DNA of 52,850 nucleotides from positions 1 to 52,850 of the forward strand of contig CACEAZ010000012.1 in the NCBI GenBank assembly GCA_902557655.1, given 5' to 3'. This DNA comes from an uncultured Bacteroidota bacterium. GTDB lineage: Bacteria; Bacteroidota; Bacteroidia; Flavobacteriales; Flavobacteriaceae. Shown here piece after piece: positions 45,278 to 52,850 of this stretch. Every line of letters starts with the position of its first letter. Position 1 is the first letter of the stretch. Made by a program: the position numbers and the translations under genes. Below the pieces are notes generated by a model. It was given only the letters and a program-made list of their open reading frames with translations. It ran no database searches and was not told the DNA's origin.

Positions 45278-45508
45278 TTAATCAATTTCTTCATAATCCA
45301 CATAATCTCCCATATTGTTATTTTTTTTAGATTTATTTTTCGGGATTTTATCAATCGAAACCTCTCCTTCTTTCTTTTTTTGAAAATCTTTTGATCTGTG
45401 GTGATTCGATTGGCTTTCCTTTGCCTTTCTAATTAAATATACATAAAGAAACCTAGACAAAAATCTGAAAGCAAAATAAAATAGAATTAAAAACAAAAAA
45501 AACTTCAT
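45278..45508 (-). CDS. Small membrane protein (DUF4834-like)
   Basis: 76 residues from ATG 45508; an upstream in-frame TTG (45550) would add 14 unlikely residues. One N-terminal helix (FFLFLILFYFAFRFLSRFLYVYLI), then a lysine-rich tail and an acidic end, DYVDYEEID. The shape recalls flavobacterial DUF4834 proteins, which I remember next to YfhO genes. Function unknown; heads the YfhO-GT4 operon. A minus-strand -7 element TAAATTTG lies at 45533-45526. Confidence 0.7.
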   Translation of the reverse strand: MKFFLFLILFYFAFRFLSRFLYVYLIRKAKESQSNHHRSKDFQKKKEGEVSIDKIPKNKSKKNNNMGDYVDYEEID

Positions 45509-45582
45509 ATTGATTTTATTTAATACAAATTTACAATTATCACAATTCAAAAAAAGTTAATATCTTATTAAATTATAAGATT

Positions 45583-45612: not shown

Positions 45613-46479
45613 ATGTATAGGACCACACTTTTAATTATATCACTTTTAATTTATCAAAATTCTTTTTCACAATACACTGACATAATAAATTCGAACAGAC
45701 CTGGGAATTCATCTGGTGCTTTCTCGGTTGGAAAAAATATATTGCAAATTGAAAGTGGCTTCTTTAATGTAAAAGAAAAACATGATTTGCTAAACTATGA
45801 AACCAAAGGATTCGGTATAGATTTTAAAATAAGATATGGTTTTCTTTATGAAAAATTAGAATTGGTAATAAATGGAGTATATCAATCCGATGAATTTAGT
45901 GACTTAAGATATAATCCTGTTAATTCTTATGATAGAAAGAATTTTAAAAAATTTCAAGTAGGTGCTAAATACTTAATTTTCGATCCAAAAAAAGGTCAAG
46001 AAGATGAGCCCAATGTATACAGTTATTGGGCTGACAGAAGATTTAATTTAAAAAATTTAATACCTGCTGTTTCGGCATATGTTGGTGTTAATATTGATTC
46101 TAAAGACAACCCATTTACAAGTTCGGGCGTTAATGGAATTAGTCCCTCAGCAGCTATTTTCACTCAAAGTAATATTACAAATAGATCTGTACTAATTAGC
46201 AACTTAATTCTAGATAGAATTGGCTCTTCTCAAAATGATTTTCAATACATAATCTCCTTAACATATGCATTTAACCAAGGTTTTATAGGTTTTATAGAAA
46301 AACATGGAATTAAAAGCAATTTTTATGCTGAAAATAAGCTTAGTCTTGGATTAGCCCATCTTTTTAACGATGATCTTCAGATTGATGTGGGATCAACCTT
46401 AAATTTTAAAAATACGCCAAAAATTAACTATATTAATCTAGGCTTAAGTTACAGACTCAATTTATATCCAAGCAGATGA
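45613..46479 (+). CDS. Outer-membrane beta-barrel, transporter family
   Basis: 288 residues with a signal peptide (first 19 residues or so, ending NSFSQ). The mature part opens INSNRPGNSSGAFSVGKNILQIESGFF and alternates short polar and aromatic strands (DFKIRYGFLYEKLELVINGVYQ), ending INLGLSYRLNLYPSR. This fits the phenol-degradation MetA-like/transporter barrel family common in Flavobacteria. It likely forms an outer-membrane barrel; transport is not proved. The GNAT gene starts inside its stop codon (ATGA), so they are coupled. Confidence 0.75.
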   Translation: MYRTTLLIISLLIYQNSFSQYTDIINSNRPGNSSGAFSVGKNILQIESGFFNVKEKHDLLNYETKGFGIDFKIRYGFLYEKLELVINGVYQSDEFSDLRYNPVNSYDRKNFKKFQVGAKYLIFDPKKGQEDEPNVYSYWADRRFNLKNLIPAVSAYVGVNIDSKDNPFTSSGVNGISPSAAIFTQSNITNRSVLISNLILDRIGSSQNDFQYIISLTYAFNQGFIGFIEKHGIKSNFYAENKLSLGLAHLFNDDLQIDVGSTLNFKNTPKINYINLGLSYRLNLYPSR

Positions 46480-47597
46480 TTTTTTTAAAAAAAGTTTCAA
46501 ACAAAAAAGACTTAAGAAATTTTGTAATGTTCCCATTTGAATTATACAAAGGATCGAAATGTTGGATTCCTCCCATTATAAATCAAGAGATGAATAACTT
46601 TAATAAAGATTTAAATCCAAATCTACAGGATTCTAAAGTTGAATTATTTTTAGCCTATCAAGATAAAAATGTTGTGGGCAGAATTGCTATTATTATAAAC
46701 TGGTTTGAGGTAAAAGAGCAAAAAACTAGTAAAATAAGATTTGGTTGGTTTGATTTTATCGACAATTATGAGGTTAGCGATATTCTGTTCAAAAAAGTAA
46801 TAGAAATTGGAAAAGCCAATCATCTTGATTACATGGAAGGACCTATGGGTTTTAGCAATCTTGATAAAGTTGGTGTATTAACAAGTGGTTTTGATGTGAT
46901 TGGAACAATGATTACAAATTACAATTATGATTATTACAAAAATCACTACGAGAAATATGGGTTAAAAATTGAAAAAACTTTTCACGAAAAGACATTTATG
47001 TTTAACGACATAGATACTGGTTATTATGAAAAAATGAGTAGAATAGTAAAAACAAGAAACAATCTTAAAGAAGTAAATTTCTACTCAACAAGTAAACTCA
47101 TGGAAAGAGCAAATGAAATGTTTGATTTGTTTAACGAATCTTATGCAAAACTTTCCTCTTTTGTAAAAATTTCTGAAAAGCAAAAAGAATATATGAAGGA
47201 AAAGTTTCTGAGTTTTATAAATCCAGAATACATAAAATTTGTAGAAAATAATGAAAACAAGATTGTTGCTTTTGCTATTATTATGCCCTCATTTGCAAAA
47301 GCTTTACAAAGAATGAATGGAAAATTATTTCCTTTCGGGTTTTTACATTTATTACATGCAAAAAAATTTAACAAAGATGTAACTCTATATCTGATTGGAA
47401 TTCATCCTGATTATCAAAAACTTGGGGTTACTGCCATTATTTTTAATTCGTTTATCCAAACGTTAAAAAACAAAGGAATTCAAATATGCAGAAGAACACC
47501 AGAGCTTGTTGATAATGAATCTATCGACAAAATATGGAAAAACTTTAACCCCAAACTGATAAAGACAAGATCTACCTACAGAGCTGATTTACATTAA
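46476..47597 (+). CDS. GNAT-fold acyltransferase-like protein
   Basis: 373 residues. The N-terminus (FPFELYKGSKCWIPP, then VVGRIAIIINWFEVKEQ) and the C-terminal YLIGIHPDYQKLGVTAIIF, which resembles the acyl-CoA-binding motif A (Q/RxxGxG/A with modification), mark a GNAT superfamily fold of the long, two-lobed type. No catalytic group is certain. It overlaps the upstream barrel gene by 4 bases and converges on the alpha-oxoamine synthase with a 9-base overlap. Given that neighbour and the GNAT-type bacterial ceramide synthases reported in Caulobacter, N-acylation of a sphingoid-like amine is a reasonable but unproved role. Confidence 0.72.
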   Translation: MIFLKKVSNKKDLRNFVMFPFELYKGSKCWIPPIINQEMNNFNKDLNPNLQDSKVELFLAYQDKNVVGRIAIIINWFEVKEQKTSKIRFGWFDFIDNYEVSDILFKKVIEIGKANHLDYMEGPMGFSNLDKVGVLTSGFDVIGTMITNYNYDYYKNHYEKYGLKIEKTFHEKTFMFNDIDTGYYEKMSRIVKTRNNLKEVNFYSTSKLMERANEMFDLFNESYAKLSSFVKISEKQKEYMKEKFLSFINPEYIKFVENNENKIVAFAIIMPSFAKALQRMNGKLFPFGFLHLLHAKKFNKDVTLYLIGIHPDYQKLGVTAIIFNSFIQTLKNKGIQICRRTPELVDNESIDKIWKNFNPKLIKTRSTYRADLH

Positions 47598-48833
47598 TTT
47601 TTCTGAAATCTTTTTATAAACTCCTGAAACTAGTCTATCCCTAATGGAAGAAAATGCTTCCAAAGTTTCCTCAATGTCTTTAAAATTATGAGAAGCTGTA
47701 GGAATTAACCTGAGTAAGATTAATCCTTTAGGGATCACAGGGTAGACAACAATTGAACAGAAAATTTTATAATTTTCCCTAAGATCTTTAACCAAAGCAA
47801 AAGCTTCTGGAATTGAACCTTTTAAATAAACAGGGGTAACACAACTTTGAGTAGAACCTATATCAAATCCTCTATCTTTCAAACCGGATTGTAATTTATT
47901 TACATTATCCCATAGTTTTTGTTTAATTTCTGGTTTTGATCTCAAAATTTCTAATCTTTTTAATATACCTTCAACCAACTGCATTTGAAGAGATTTTGCA
48001 AAAACTTGAGATCTCATATTGTATTTAAGAAAATCAATAATTTCTTTATCTGAAGCTATAAAGGCACCCGTACTAGCCATTGATTTTGCAAATGTTGCAA
48101 AATACACATCTATTTCGTCTTGAACTCCTTGCTCCTCACCTGCCCCAGCTCCTGTTTTTCCAAGAGTACCAAATCCGTGAGCATCATCAACCAATAGCCT
48201 AAAATTAAATTTTGATTTCAAAGCCACAATTTCCTTAAGCTTGCCTTGCTCACCTCTCATTCCAAAAACACCCTCAGAAATAACCAAAATACCACCGTTG
48301 GTTTCATTTGCAATCTTTGTTGCCCTTACAAGGTTTTTTTCAAGACTTTCCATATCATTGTGTTGATAAGTAAATCTTTTACCAAGATGCAGTCTCACAC
48401 CGTCAATGATACATGCGTGTGAATCAATATCATAAACGATTACATCATTTTTACTTACCAATGAATCAATTGTAGATAATATTCCTTGATAGCCAAAGTT
48501 TAATACATAAGCGGATTCTTTGTTAACAAATTCTGCAAGCTCTTTTTGAAGTTGATCATGTAGGTCGGTATGCCCGGACATTAATCTTGCACCCATTGGA
48601 TAGGCAGATCCGTATTTAGCAGCTGCTTCAGCATCAATTTTTCTAACCTCTGGGTCGTTTGCAAGCCCTAAATAATCATTTACACTCCATGTGATAACTT
48701 CATGACCATTAAATTTCATTCTACTTGAAATTTCACCCTCAAGTTTTGGAAATGCAAAATAACCTTCCGCTATATCAGCCCATTTTCCAAGAGGCCCCTT
48801 ATCTTGACGCATTCTATCAAATAAATCTCTCAT
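47589..48833 (-). CDS. Alpha-oxoamine synthase, putative cysteate/serine C-acyltransferase of sulfonolipid or sphingolipid synthesis
   Basis: 414 residues, fold-type I PLP enzyme of the AONS/KBL/SPT family. PLP Lys is K250 in TFAKSMAS; ring-stacking H139 in DSHACIIDG; LVDDAHGFGTLG (D216/D217, H219). The N-terminal extension MRDLFDRMRQDKGPLGKWAD and FPKLEG is the Bacteroidetes subtype. Biotin and threonine-degradation genes are absent nearby, making AONS or KBL unlikely. Being one base after a cysteate-synthase-like gene, it probably condenses cysteate (or serine) with fatty acyl-CoA/ACP to a 3-keto sulfonolipid base, the CapB step of capnine synthesis. Family certain, substrate inferred. Confidence 0.85.
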   Translation of the reverse strand: MRDLFDRMRQDKGPLGKWADIAEGYFAFPKLEGEISSRMKFNGHEVITWSVNDYLGLANDPEVRKIDAEAAAKYGSAYPMGARLMSGHTDLHDQLQKELAEFVNKESAYVLNFGYQGILSTIDSLVSKNDVIVYDIDSHACIIDGVRLHLGKRFTYQHNDMESLEKNLVRATKIANETNGGILVISEGVFGMRGEQGKLKEIVALKSKFNFRLLVDDAHGFGTLGKTGAGAGEEQGVQDEIDVYFATFAKSMASTGAFIASDKEIIDFLKYNMRSQVFAKSLQMQLVEGILKRLEILRSKPEIKQKLWDNVNKLQSGLKDRGFDIGSTQSCVTPVYLKGSIPEAFALVKDLRENYKIFCSIVVYPVIPKGLILLRLIPTASHNFKDIEETLEAFSSIRDRLVSGVYKKISEKLM

Positions 48834-48834
48834 A

Positions 48835-49878
48835 TTATTTTCTTATGTATTGTATGTCATTATTATTTATCTCATGAACTGAATCAGAAAAACCTTGATT
48901 TTCCATCCATTTATCACTATATATCTTGCTTAAATATCTTGATCCATGGTCAGGAAAAATAACAACTATGTAATCTGATTTTTTAAATTCATTTAACATA
49001 TTTAATTGCTTTACTGCCTGAAAAGCAGCACCACTTGTGTACCCTACAAAAATACCTTCTGTTTTAACAATTTCCCTGGCTGTATGAGCACTATCTTCAT
49101 CAGAAACTTTTATAAACTTATCGATTATATCAAAATTGGTTACAGTTGGAATTAAATTTTTACCAAGTCCCTCTATTCTGTATGGATAAATTTCTTTTTC
49201 ATCAAATTCACCAGTTTCATGATATTTCTTTAAAACAGAACCGTATGCATCAACTCCAATAATTTTTATATTGGAATTCTTTTCTTTTAAAAATTTAGCT
49301 GTTCCTGAAATTGTTCCGCCTGTTCCGCTGCAAACTATCAAATGCGTTATTTTACCATCGGTCTGATTCCATATCTCAGGGCCAGTTGTCAAATAATGTG
49401 CTTCAGCGTTCAGATCGTTAAAATATTGATTTATATATATTGAACCCTTAATTTCATTATGTAGTCTTTTTGCTACTTGATAATATGATCTTGGGTCATC
49501 AGCGGCAACATTAGCTGGACAAACATAAACCTTAGCCCCCATTGCCTTTAACATATCAATTTTATCGTTAGAGGATTTTGAAGAGACAGCTAAAATACAA
49601 TCATAACCCTTAGTTAAAGAAACCATAGCTAAGCTAAATCCCGTATTTCCAGATGTAGTTTCAATAATTGTGTCTCCTGGTTTTAAAATGCCTTTTTTTT
49701 CAGCAGTTTCAACTATGTGAAGGGCAATTCTGTCCTTAGATGAGTGGCCAGGATTGGATGCTTCTAATTTTGCCAAATAAGTTCCAAGAAAACTATTGGT
49801 GAGTTTATCTATTTTTACCATGGGTGTATTACCCACAAGCTCCAATAAATTATTAAATACATTTTTACTTTTTTTCAT
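48835..49878 (-). CDS. CBS/cysteine-synthase-like PLP enzyme, putative cysteate synthase
   Basis: 347 residues, fold-type II PLP enzyme. PLP Lys is K48 in [10 protein letters not shown]; phosphate loop TSGNTG (75-80); GTGGT (185-189). Its body resembles cystathionine beta-synthase ([51 protein letters not shown]) and lacks the CBS regulatory domains and a heme site. A normal cysteine synthase is the main alternative. Placement one base upstream of the alpha-oxoamine synthase, with its own promoter, matches capnine synthesis, where CapA makes cysteate from phosphoserine and sulfite. Product assignment is inference. Confidence 0.82.
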
Positions 49879-49906
49879 CCAGATTGAAAAAACATTTAGA
49901 GCACTA

Positions 49907-49914
49907 CAAAAATA
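49907..49914 (-). promoter_or_regulatory. -7 promoter element of the putative sulfonolipid pair
   Basis: Minus-strand TATTTTTG, an exact TAnnTTTG, in the 67-base gap after the threonine aldolase gene, 28 bases before ATG 49878. It suggests the two lipid genes are transcribed independently of the aldolase. Confidence 0.45.
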
Positions 49915-49945: not shown

Positions 49946-50968
49946 TTATAATTTATCGACAATTTTAAGAAGATACTTATGATCCGTTTCAGAATAATCT
50001 AAATGAGTTACAATTCTAATTTTTTTAGGCCCCATAGAATACCAATCAAAAACTACATCATTTTTAGAAAAATAATCTATAATTGTTTTTTTACTGAAAC
50101 CTTCATTTAGTTCCATTATAATGATGTTTGTTTCAACATCATTAATTTTTTTTACAAAACTTTTATCTAAAAACTTTGATGCTATTTCTTTTGCTCTAAA
50201 GTGATCTTCTGACAACCTGGGAATATTGTTTTCTAAGGCAAATAACCCAGCAGCTGCAAGATATCCGACTTGCCTCATACCTCCACCCAAAATCTTTCTT
50301 ATCCTAAGAGCTTTATCCATAAACTTTTTTTTACCCAAAAGAACAGATCCAATTGGACAACCTAATCCTTTACTTAAACATACAGACATGGTGTCAAAAT
50401 AAATTCCATATAACTCTGGATTGTCTTTTTTTGCTACAATTGAATTCCAAATTCTAGCCCCATCCATATGAATTCCTAAATTATTTTTTTTACAAACGCT
50501 ATTAATCTCATCAAAATCACTAACATTCCAACACGCTCCACCACCTTTATTTGTTGTGTTCTCTAAACAAACTAATTTTGATAAAGGTGCATGATAAAAT
50601 GCTTTGGGATTTATTGCATCAGATAAATGATCTGACGAAAAAAAACCTTTTTCACCTTTCAATAATTTAAAAGAAACTCCACTATTAAATGACGCCCCAC
50701 CCCCTTCATAATTATATACGTGTGAATATTCATGAGCAATGACCTGATCTCCTGGGTTTGTGTGAAGTTTAATAGCAGTTTGATTAGCCATCGTTCCAGA
50801 GGGAAAAAACATTGCTTGTTCCATTCCAAAATAATTTGCAATAAAACTTTCTAGTTTCTTAACTGTTGGGTCTTCACCGTAAACATCGTCGCCTACCTTT
50901 GCATTAAGCATTAGATCAAGCATTTTAGCACTTGGTTTTGTTATCGTATCACTTCTTAAATCAATCAT
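49946..50968 (-). CDS. Low-specificity threonine aldolase-type PLP enzyme
   Basis: 340 residues, fold-type I. Opening MIDLRSDTITKPS and GDDVYGEDPTVKKLE are diagnostic; the PLP Lys is in VCLSKGLGCPIGSVLLGKK; HMDGARIWN and GGGMRQVGYLAAAG are conserved. It splits threonine or allo-threonine to glycine and acetaldehyde. It overlaps the metalloprotease gene end by 4 bases (ATGA). Confidence 0.94.
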   Translation of the reverse strand: MIDLRSDTITKPSAKMLDLMLNAKVGDDVYGEDPTVKKLESFIANYFGMEQAMFFPSGTMANQTAIKLHTNPGDQVIAHEYSHVYNYEGGGASFNSGVSFKLLKGEKGFFSSDHLSDAINPKAFYHAPLSKLVCLENTTNKGGGACWNVSDFDEINSVCKKNNLGIHMDGARIWNSIVAKKDNPELYGIYFDTMSVCLSKGLGCPIGSVLLGKKKFMDKALRIRKILGGGMRQVGYLAAAGLFALENNIPRLSEDHFRAKEIASKFLDKSFVKKINDVETNIIIMELNEGFSKKTIIDYFSKNDVVFDWYSMGPKKIRIVTHLDYSETDHKYLLKIVDKL

Positions 50969-52850
50969 CTACTATGAATATAACTACAATTATCTGTCCC
51001 TATAGGAGATCCATCAGGAATCTTTAAAGAATCTTTTATTTCATATTCTTCTGGGTCCTCATAAAAATCATTAATCATTTTAATATAATGACTTGAATAT
51101 TTTAAAAATTTATAATCCTTTCTTTTTTTTGATAATAGCTCTAGTATAATTTTTGACAAGTAATCATTGCTAATGTTTTGAACCTGTGAAAAAGTACTTG
51201 AATCATTAATAACCTTGAAAATATTTTTTAATAGGGTCACATTAACAATATGCTGAACTTCTTCATGATAAGAATCATTAATCGATGAGATATTATTTGT
51301 TTTTAAAAGAATTGTTCTTTTGAATATATAATCATATAAATCATTTAAACTAAGGTTAGAATTATCTAAGGAATATTGTAACACTAATCTATTAAGTCGT
51401 TTTGGCCTTAAAATTAAGCTTAGAGTCATATCAGCAGATGTTTCACTAACCGAAAAAGGGTCAAAAGCTACTCCTAAATTTGACTTAAAAGATTCTCTTG
51501 TTCGAGGGTATCCAAATGCTCTTGGGGGAAATAACTTTAATTTATCCTTTGGAATCGCTAAAAAATTCGGAGATAGAGTTTTAACCAGTGAATTTAAAGC
51601 TTCTAGTTGGGTGTCTTTATCGAGGTAATGAAATTCATTTTGATTATCCCCTACCAAAGAATAATTATAATCCATACCACCAATTATCTTCGCAGTAGCC
51701 TCGGTTTGATATCTATGAAAAAAATATAACGGAACAAAAACATCCTCAAGTACAGAATTTGGAGTTCCTTTAGGTACATTATACTCAGAAAAATTTTGAA
51801 TTGCTTTCTGTCTTATTTCAATTACTTTATCAAGTCCAGAATATGCAGTAACACCATTATCCCAAAGATGAGCATAAGCATGAGAGCCATCAAGTGAACG
51901 AGCATCATAGTCACTAATAAATCTTAAACCATTGTCTGTAGCATCCTCCAAAATTTTATTTAGCTCATCATTTTCATTTTGATGGGATTTAAAATGACTA
52001 TAGCTATAGGCTACCGTAACTTTATCCCAATCTCCAATTCCCGTGTCATAAACATCATCAAAAACAATTTCATCATCTTTAATATCCACCAATGGATGTG
52101 GATAGTCCATCACAGATGCTCTATTATTAGCGCTCGCTGCAAAATTATGTGCAAATCCAATTGTATGACCTATTTCGTGAGCACTAAGCTGTCTTATTCT
52201 GGCAATAGCTAACTCTAGCATTTGATTGTTTTGATTATTTGAAATAAAAGGGTCTTTGGATAATGCTTGAGCAATCATGTAATCTTGTCTTATTCTAAGA
52301 CTTCCTAAACTAACATGACCTTTGATAATTTCACCTGTTCTTGGGTCAATAACACTAGCTCCATAACTCCAACCTCTTGTAGATCTGTGAACCCATTGAA
52401 TTACATTATATCTGCAATCTAAAGGGTCGATACCTTCTGGAAGCATTTTAACCTGGAAAGCATCTTTAAAACCAATTGATTCATAAGCCTGATTCCACCA
52501 CCTTCCACCATCTAACAAAGCACTTTTAACGGGCTCTGGTGTTCCGGGGTCTAAATAGTATATTATAGGTTCTACTGCTTCAGAAATTTCTAATTCTGGA
52601 TTTTTCTTTTCTAGCCTATGTCTAATTACATATTTTTTTGTGATGGGCTCATCGATTGGGCTGGAATAATCCATATAGGAAATTGATATCGCTCCACTTC
52701 TTGTATCAAATTTTCTAGGATTATAATTGTTGTCGGGAAGTTTAACAAAAGAATGATGTTGAAATACAGTAACATTATCTGGGTCAGGAGTAACACTTCT
52801 AATCAGACTCCCTTTTGCTTCACCAGAAAAAGTTAATAGTGCTTCGAATT
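50965..52850 (-). CDS. Secreted zinc-dependent metalloprotease (metzincin), 5' partial
   Basis: The reading frame is open to the right edge, so the gene begins outside; 628 residues are visible and the ATG at 52674 is internal. A metzincin site HEIGHTIGFAHN is followed 16 residues on by a Met-turn SVMDYPHP. Flanking sequence (PIIYYLDPGTPEPVKSALLDGG, WVHRSTRGWSYGASVIDPRTGEI) is that of the large Bacteroidetes zinc metalloproteases with DUF5117 and DUF4953 parts. These are exported and degrade proteins outside the cell; the signal peptide is out of view. It ends with 4 bases of overlap with the aldolase gene. Confidence 0.9.
   Translation of the reverse strand, partial: FEALLTFSGEAKGSLIRSVTPDPDNVTVFQHHSFVKLPDNNYNPRKFDTRSGAISISYMDYSSPIDEPITKKYVIRHRLEKKNPELEISEAVEPIIYYLDPGTPEPVKSALLDGGRWWNQAYESIGFKDAFQVKMLPEGIDPLDCRYNVIQWVHRSTRGWSYGASVIDPRTGEIIKGHVSLGSLRIRQDYMIAQALSKDPFISNNQNNQMLELAIARIRQLSAHEIGHTIGFAHNFAASANNRASVMDYPHPLVDIKDDEIVFDDVYDTGIGDWDKVTVAYSYSHFKSHQNENDELNKILEDATDNGLRFISDYDARSLDGSHAYAHLWDNGVTAYSGLDKVIEIRQKAIQNFSEYNVPKGTPNSVLEDVFVPLYFFHRYQTEATAKIIGGMDYNYSLVGDNQNEFHYLDKDTQLEALNSLVKTLSPNFLAIPKDKLKLFPPRAFGYPRTRESFKSNLGVAFDPFSVSETSADMTLSLILRPKRLNRLVLQYSLDNSNLSLNDLYDYIFKRTILLKTNNISSINDSYHEEVQHIVNVTLLKNIFKVINDSSTFSQVQNISNDYLSKIILELLSKKRKDYKFLKYSSHYIKMINDFYEDPEEYEIKDSLKIPDGSPIGTDNCSYIHSR

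Follow-up and report, generated by a model that had tools for sequence, protein, structure and literature searches.

A capA–capB pair for sulfonolipid synthesis

We analysed a pair of adjoining genes in a 52,850-nucleotide stretch of DNA (the window, meaning this whole stretch), which is contig C12 of a 1.39-Mb Flavobacteriaceae genome from a lineage that we take to be marine. As judged from the sequences of the genes and their relatives, the pair is almost certainly an ordinary capA–capB transcription unit encoding the predicted first two enzymes of sulfonolipid synthesis, and the organism would be expected to produce sulfonolipid. The features of the unit are as follows.

48835..49878, minus strand: capA, predicted cysteate synthase of 347 aa, a fold-type II pyridoxal phosphate (PLP) enzyme (called from model NF053679, identity to 9k2p, tree and motif)
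48834..48834, minus strand: the single base between the capA stop and the capB start (from the open reading frame coordinates)
47589..48833, minus strand: capB (also sulA), predicted cysteate C-acyltransferase of 414 aa, an alpha-oxoamine synthase (called from identities, active-site residues and tree)
49907..49914, minus strand: TATTTTTG, a match to TAnnTTTG 28 bp before the capA ATG

Both open reading frames (ORFs) are intact, and only base 48834 separates the capA stop from the capB ATG. The initial annotation had described a fold-II PLP enzyme resembling cystathionine beta-synthase (CBS) one base away from an alpha-oxoamine synthase, and the Pfam matches (PALP in CapA, 256.9 bits; Aminotran_1_2 in CapB, 122.7 bits) agree with that description. 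Its further proposal that the two are CapA and CapB is borne out as well, as the predicted identities of both genes rest on a curated model whose cut-off is passed, on trees, on active-site residues and on conserved pairing.

The upstream enzyme scores 623.8 bits against the NCBIfam equivalog NF053679 (CysteaSynCapA, "cysteate synthase CapA"; cut-off 600), and it falls below the NCBIfam cut-offs for CBS (cysta_beta, 383.9 versus 510.25 bits) and for cysK (266.9 versus 350.95 bits). Its nearest chain in the PDB is 9k2p (63.6% identity over 330 aa), which is described as a PLP-dependent protein beta subunit and nothing further, and a GHSSKDR motif surrounds the presumed PLP lysine. In the tree CapA falls into a clade (support 100/99) together with 9k2p and the CapA proteins of its relatives, apart from the CBS and CysK-like rows; of the latter L150 is over the cysK cut-off and sits on a long branch that the program flagged as unsure, L151, L152, L153 and L155 are below that cut-off, and the tree omits four CapA rows (L010, L020, L028 and L078). 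With NF053679 passed and this clade recovered, CapA does not group with housekeeping CysK, a placement that the initial annotation had named as evidence against its own proposal. The closest known enzymes are the CapA of Capnocytophaga ochracea (C7M8J5) and the cysteate synthase Cys of Chryseobacterium gleum; the window protein resembles them in passing the equivalog, in its predicted reaction and in adjoining the condensing enzyme, and no difference from either was found, the likeness being judged through NF053679. A related protein is encoded on another contig of the same genome.

L022:7360-8337 (G000, contig C7), minus strand: CapA paralogue, 59% identical to CapA

This paralogue scores 470.5 bits against NF053679, and neither there nor with any other NCBIfam model among its listed matches does it reach the cut-off. 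It groups with the paralogues of other family members in a family-wide clade (99/98) that stands beside the CapA clade. As none of the proteins found in this genome, which is 81.7% complete, exceeds the cysK cut-off, the paralogue may serve as a cysteine or cystathionine synthase. The same absence, together with the membership of CapA in the PALP family to which CysK and CBS belong, could be taken to mean that CapA itself is a housekeeping cysteine synthase or CBS that stands beside the acyltransferase by chance. However, CapA is over the equivalog cut-off, the separate paralogue on contig C7 could serve cysteine or CBS chemistry, and the CapA–CapB pairing is conserved, which leaves this explanation very improbable.

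The best PDB chains for the downstream enzyme are 28eh ("Cysteate-C-fatty acyltransferase"; 70.5% identity, 687 bits in phmmer) and 7u7h (SulA; 60.5%, 562 bits), compared to 35.4% and 256 bits for serine palmitoyltransferase (SPT, 3a2b) and 29.3% and 192 bits for 2-amino-3-ketobutyrate CoA ligase (KBL, 7v58). Among uncultured Bacteroidetes isolates it is 99% identical to the CapB of AG-313-I08 and 94% identical to that of AG-313-F11, and its identity to the CapB of Bacteroidetes bacterium MED-G13 is 88%. A comparison of substrate-pocket residues, suggested in the initial annotation, came out in favor of CapB: all ten SulA active-site positions checked are shared (N52, G114, Y115, H139, D216, H219, T247, K250, K280 and R375), K250 being the PLP lysine and K280 the diagnostic lysine equivalent to Lys281 of SulA, a position at which SPT has Ala and KBL Asn. 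The roles of these residues in SulA are described in the available part of PMC9304779. Of 129 CapB translations from related loci, 128 contain a FAKS motif; the exception, L135, was read out of frame. In the synthase tree the protein joins the CapB/SulA clade (100/100), which excludes SPT, KBL and the BioF-like row, so that the grouping with KBL or BioF that was to count against the assignment did not occur; two branches in this tree, those of the BioF-like row L144 and of SPT 3a2b, are long and flagged as unsure.

Relative to the known enzymes called CapB, cysteate C-fatty acyltransferase (CFAT) or SulA (Flavobacterium johnsoniae Fjoh_2419; Alistipes finegoldii Alfi_1224, which is PDB 7u7h; and 28eh), the ten residues including the diagnostic lysine are all shared and no functional difference is visible. 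Bacterial SPT (3a2b) shares the fold family, the chemistry and eight of the ten active-site positions, but it differs at the diagnostic site, where it has Ala for Lys, and at SulA position 116, where it has Phe for Tyr. That the protein is nevertheless an SPT (or a KBL or BioF), with the organism making sphingolipid or biotin and not sulfonolipid, is extremely unlikely: although SPT has the same fold and the best NCBIfam match is an SPT model, with no CapB model among the matches there, its score (NF047600, 306.3 bits) is far under the cut-off of 640, those of NF047599 (275.8 versus 500) and NF047603 (198.3 versus 670) are also below theirs, the identities, Lys280 and the tree all set the protein apart from SPT, and its partner gene encodes a cysteate synthase by the curated model. 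It is also the sole oxoamine synthase found in this incomplete genome.

The capA–capB pair belongs to a characterised and annotated pathway and is as such already known. In this pathway CapA would convert O-phospho-L-serine and sulfite to L-cysteate, which CapB would condense with a fatty acyl thioester (an acyl-acyl carrier protein, as in the Alistipes enzyme, or an acyl-CoA) to 3-ketocapnine with the loss of CO2. A short-chain dehydrogenase (SDR) encoded elsewhere in the genome would then reduce 3-ketocapnine to capnine, and an N-acyltransferase would finally turn capnine into the outer-membrane sulfonolipid.

Putative promoter and distribution of the pair

The pair had also been credited with its own −7 element. 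The octamer upstream of capA matches TAnnTTTG, which we take to be the −7 promoter element of Bacteroidota. A single copy of this motif proves nothing, because shuffling the window yields it about as often (95 copies observed versus 94.2 expected, with 46 of 100 shuffles reaching at least 95). Its place, however, is conserved. Among the 116 loci that extend 150 bp or more upstream of capA, 111 carry TAnnTTTG no further than 150 bp from the start of the gene, whereas 200 first-order Markov controls averaged 18.3 and never exceeded 32; the loci are mutually related and include some genomes twice. Support for the element thus comes only from its conserved place and not from its frequency.

For the gene neighbourhood we used 100 loci (L023–L122), made up of 20 chosen stretches, mostly from small genomes of the family, and the best 80 of at least 587 confirmed relatives, a sample biased toward close relatives. 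The gene before capA in the window is threonine-aldolase-like. An ORF of 686–690 aa stands directly before capA in L027, L039, L054 and L058; the one in L027 (L027:6805-8877) encodes an S9 prolyl oligopeptidase, a relative of which is present in 86 of the 100 loci and absent from 14, including the nearest kin of the window (L023, L024, L043, L044 and L045). Such variation in the preceding gene is consistent with the pair having a promoter of its own. Within the pair the distance varies as well, the capA–capB gap ranging from −4 to 1603 bp (median 143) across 117 related pairs, several genomes being counted twice; it is 1 bp in the window and below 30 bp in 19 pairs.

CapA and CapB occur together in 96 of the 100 loci, a count that includes L082, whose CapA consists of an end fragment of 60 residues; in L029 CapA lies at a contig end. 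At the level of the family (Flavobacteriaceae, 149 genomes) CapA is over the NF053679 cut-off in 135 genomes. CapB was searched for in 17 of the 149, namely the 14 in which CapA does not pass the cut-off and G003, G064 and G083; 11 of those 14 have a CapB-level match and three (G002, G016 and G081) do not. At the level of the class (Bacteroidia, 295 genomes) a CapB-level match (best E < 1e-100) is found in 258 genomes, a weaker match in 31 and none at 1e-30 in six, as counted by eye from the match rows. The pair is common in family and class and not peculiar to this organism.

Two side observations concern this distribution. CapB without CapA over the cut-off is seen in G014, G093 and G146 (100%, 99% and 90% complete; CapB loci L130, L131 and L137). 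In addition, L049 is a contig labelled Candidatus Rokubacteria with a Flavobacteriaceae-like capAB neighbourhood, and is probably mis-binned.

Candidates for the later steps and neighbouring genes

In the available part of a review the pathway runs from CapA through CapB and the reductase CapC to an N-acylation as its last step (PMC10191378), and the accessible part of a further study describes several SDRs with 3-ketocapnine reductase activity that do not adjoin the first two genes (PMC11211663). The initial annotation had likewise expected the C-3 reductase to be encoded elsewhere, and the best candidate indeed lies outside the window. The genome encodes five SDRs that pass the Pfam cut-off, of which the one on contig C3 is a good candidate for the 3-ketocapnine reductase.

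L125:1252-2052 = G000:C3:26386-27183, minus strand: KdsR-like SDR, reductase candidate (L125), best NCBIfam match NF049977

The known counterparts of this candidate would be CapC of Ornithobacterium rhinotracheale and the 3-ketocapnine reductases (KCRs) from C. gleum and A. finegoldii. The likeness is read from its best NCBIfam match, a 3-ketodihydrosphingosine reductase; its score is under the cut-off of that model, and it lies outside the window. A match to the SDR at E < 1e-60 is found in 141 of the 149 family genomes, none of them over the NF049977 cut-off, and among the genomes without such a match are G002, G016 and G081, the three that have neither CapA nor CapB. The joint loss gives a hand-worked one-sided Fisher p of ∼1e-4, or 2e-3 when G081 (only 66% complete) is left out, and as the genomes are related this is a lead only. 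In the class-wide search, SDR profile matches at E < 1e-100 are confined to the nine members of the family in the sample, the genome of the window among them, and the weaker matches are indistinguishable from other SDRs; the profile is usable within the family only.

For the N-acylation step, the gene next to capB offers itself.

46476-47597, plus strand: GNAT-fold protein of 373 aa, convergent with capB with a 9-bp overlap

This protein might be the N-acyltransferase for the last step of sulfonolipid synthesis, as its gene is close to capB in 52 of the 100 related loci and overlaps it in the window, it has a weak match to the GNAT domain (23.9 bits, Pfam cut-off 20.7), and the literature on sulfonolipid makers, in the parts available, names no enzyme for the step. 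Across the class, however, the GNAT gene and capB are not positively associated: close relatives of GNAT (E < 1e-80) occur in 38 of the 295 genomes, and a CapB-level match in 30 of these 38, compared to 258 of 295 overall. The two also separate in both senses, G311 (rated 100% complete) having CapB and no GNAT match at 1e-5 and G421 carrying GNAT while lacking, at 1e-30, any match to the CapB alignment, and other, apparently unrelated neighbours are conserved in the same loci. We consider this role very unlikely and reject the protein as the general N-acyltransferase of the pathway on the basis of the 295 class genomes; a role confined to the family is still conceivable. As GNAT is not associated with CapB across the class, the conserved block of genes around capB is read as family synteny.

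Several points weigh against a complete and functional sulfonolipid pathway in this organism. The genome is only 81.7% complete. The pairing is not strict, as CapB occurs with no CapA nearby in the public contigs L047, L075 and L108, each of which extends 4.6 kb or more upstream; in these loci, as in the three genomes named above, cysteate would come from another enzyme, another locus or from outside. The candidate reductase scores 250.9 bits against the 3-ketodihydrosphingosine reductase model NF049977, below the cut-off of 400, and is missing (at E < 1e-60) from G030, G048, G079, G116 and G122 despite the presence of CapA and/or CapB (5 of 146). Finally, no N-acyltransferase was identified, the candidate examined being the GNAT neighbour, by co-occurrence.

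Two further ORFs of the window were recorded.

50965-52850, minus strand: Met-zincin (DUF4953) gene, its frame open to the contig end, where the gene is cut
45278-45550, minus strand: small ORF of 90 aa that begins with TTG and includes a hydrophobic stretch

The homologue of the Met-zincin gene in L043 encodes 811 aa. ORFs of 93–99 aa stand at the same place as the small ORF in L039, L054 and L058, and a Pfam search of the 90-aa ORF gave no match.

Sulfonolipid genes and gliding

The link between sulfonolipid and gliding made in the initial annotation rests on the literature, in its available parts (PMC9304779, PMC10191378), the F. johnsoniae gene being fjoh_2419 (PMC9304779, PMC12045153). 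We examined a single gliding gene, gldJ, whose product is present in the genome of the window (724.8 bits, cut-off 458.2) and over the cut-off in 143 of the 149 family genomes. G064 (99% complete) has CapA, CapB and the SDR and no GldJ over the cut-off, and conversely G002 (99%) and G016 (91%) have GldJ and neither CapA nor CapB. Little can be read from the five remaining genomes in which GldJ does not pass the cut-off (G003, G067, G081, G083 and G089), as they are only 66–88% complete. As capA–capB and gldJ separate in both directions, it is conceivable, though we regard it as somewhat doubtful, that sulfonolipid synthesis belongs to the core envelope functions of the family and is kept in genomes as small as 1.4–2 Mb for reasons other than gliding, with a mostly single-copy KdsR-like SDR as the reductase.

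Together these results confirm, at the level of gene content, the first two sulfonolipid enzymes in an uncultured Flavobacteriaceae lineage with a small genome, and add no new kind of system. Sulfonolipids have been linked in the literature to gliding, to the make-up of the outer membrane and to signalling to choanoflagellates and animals. For the family the analysis provides two useful leads: a candidate reductase, and a few genomes that have lost the usual association of sulfonolipid genes with gldJ or never had it.

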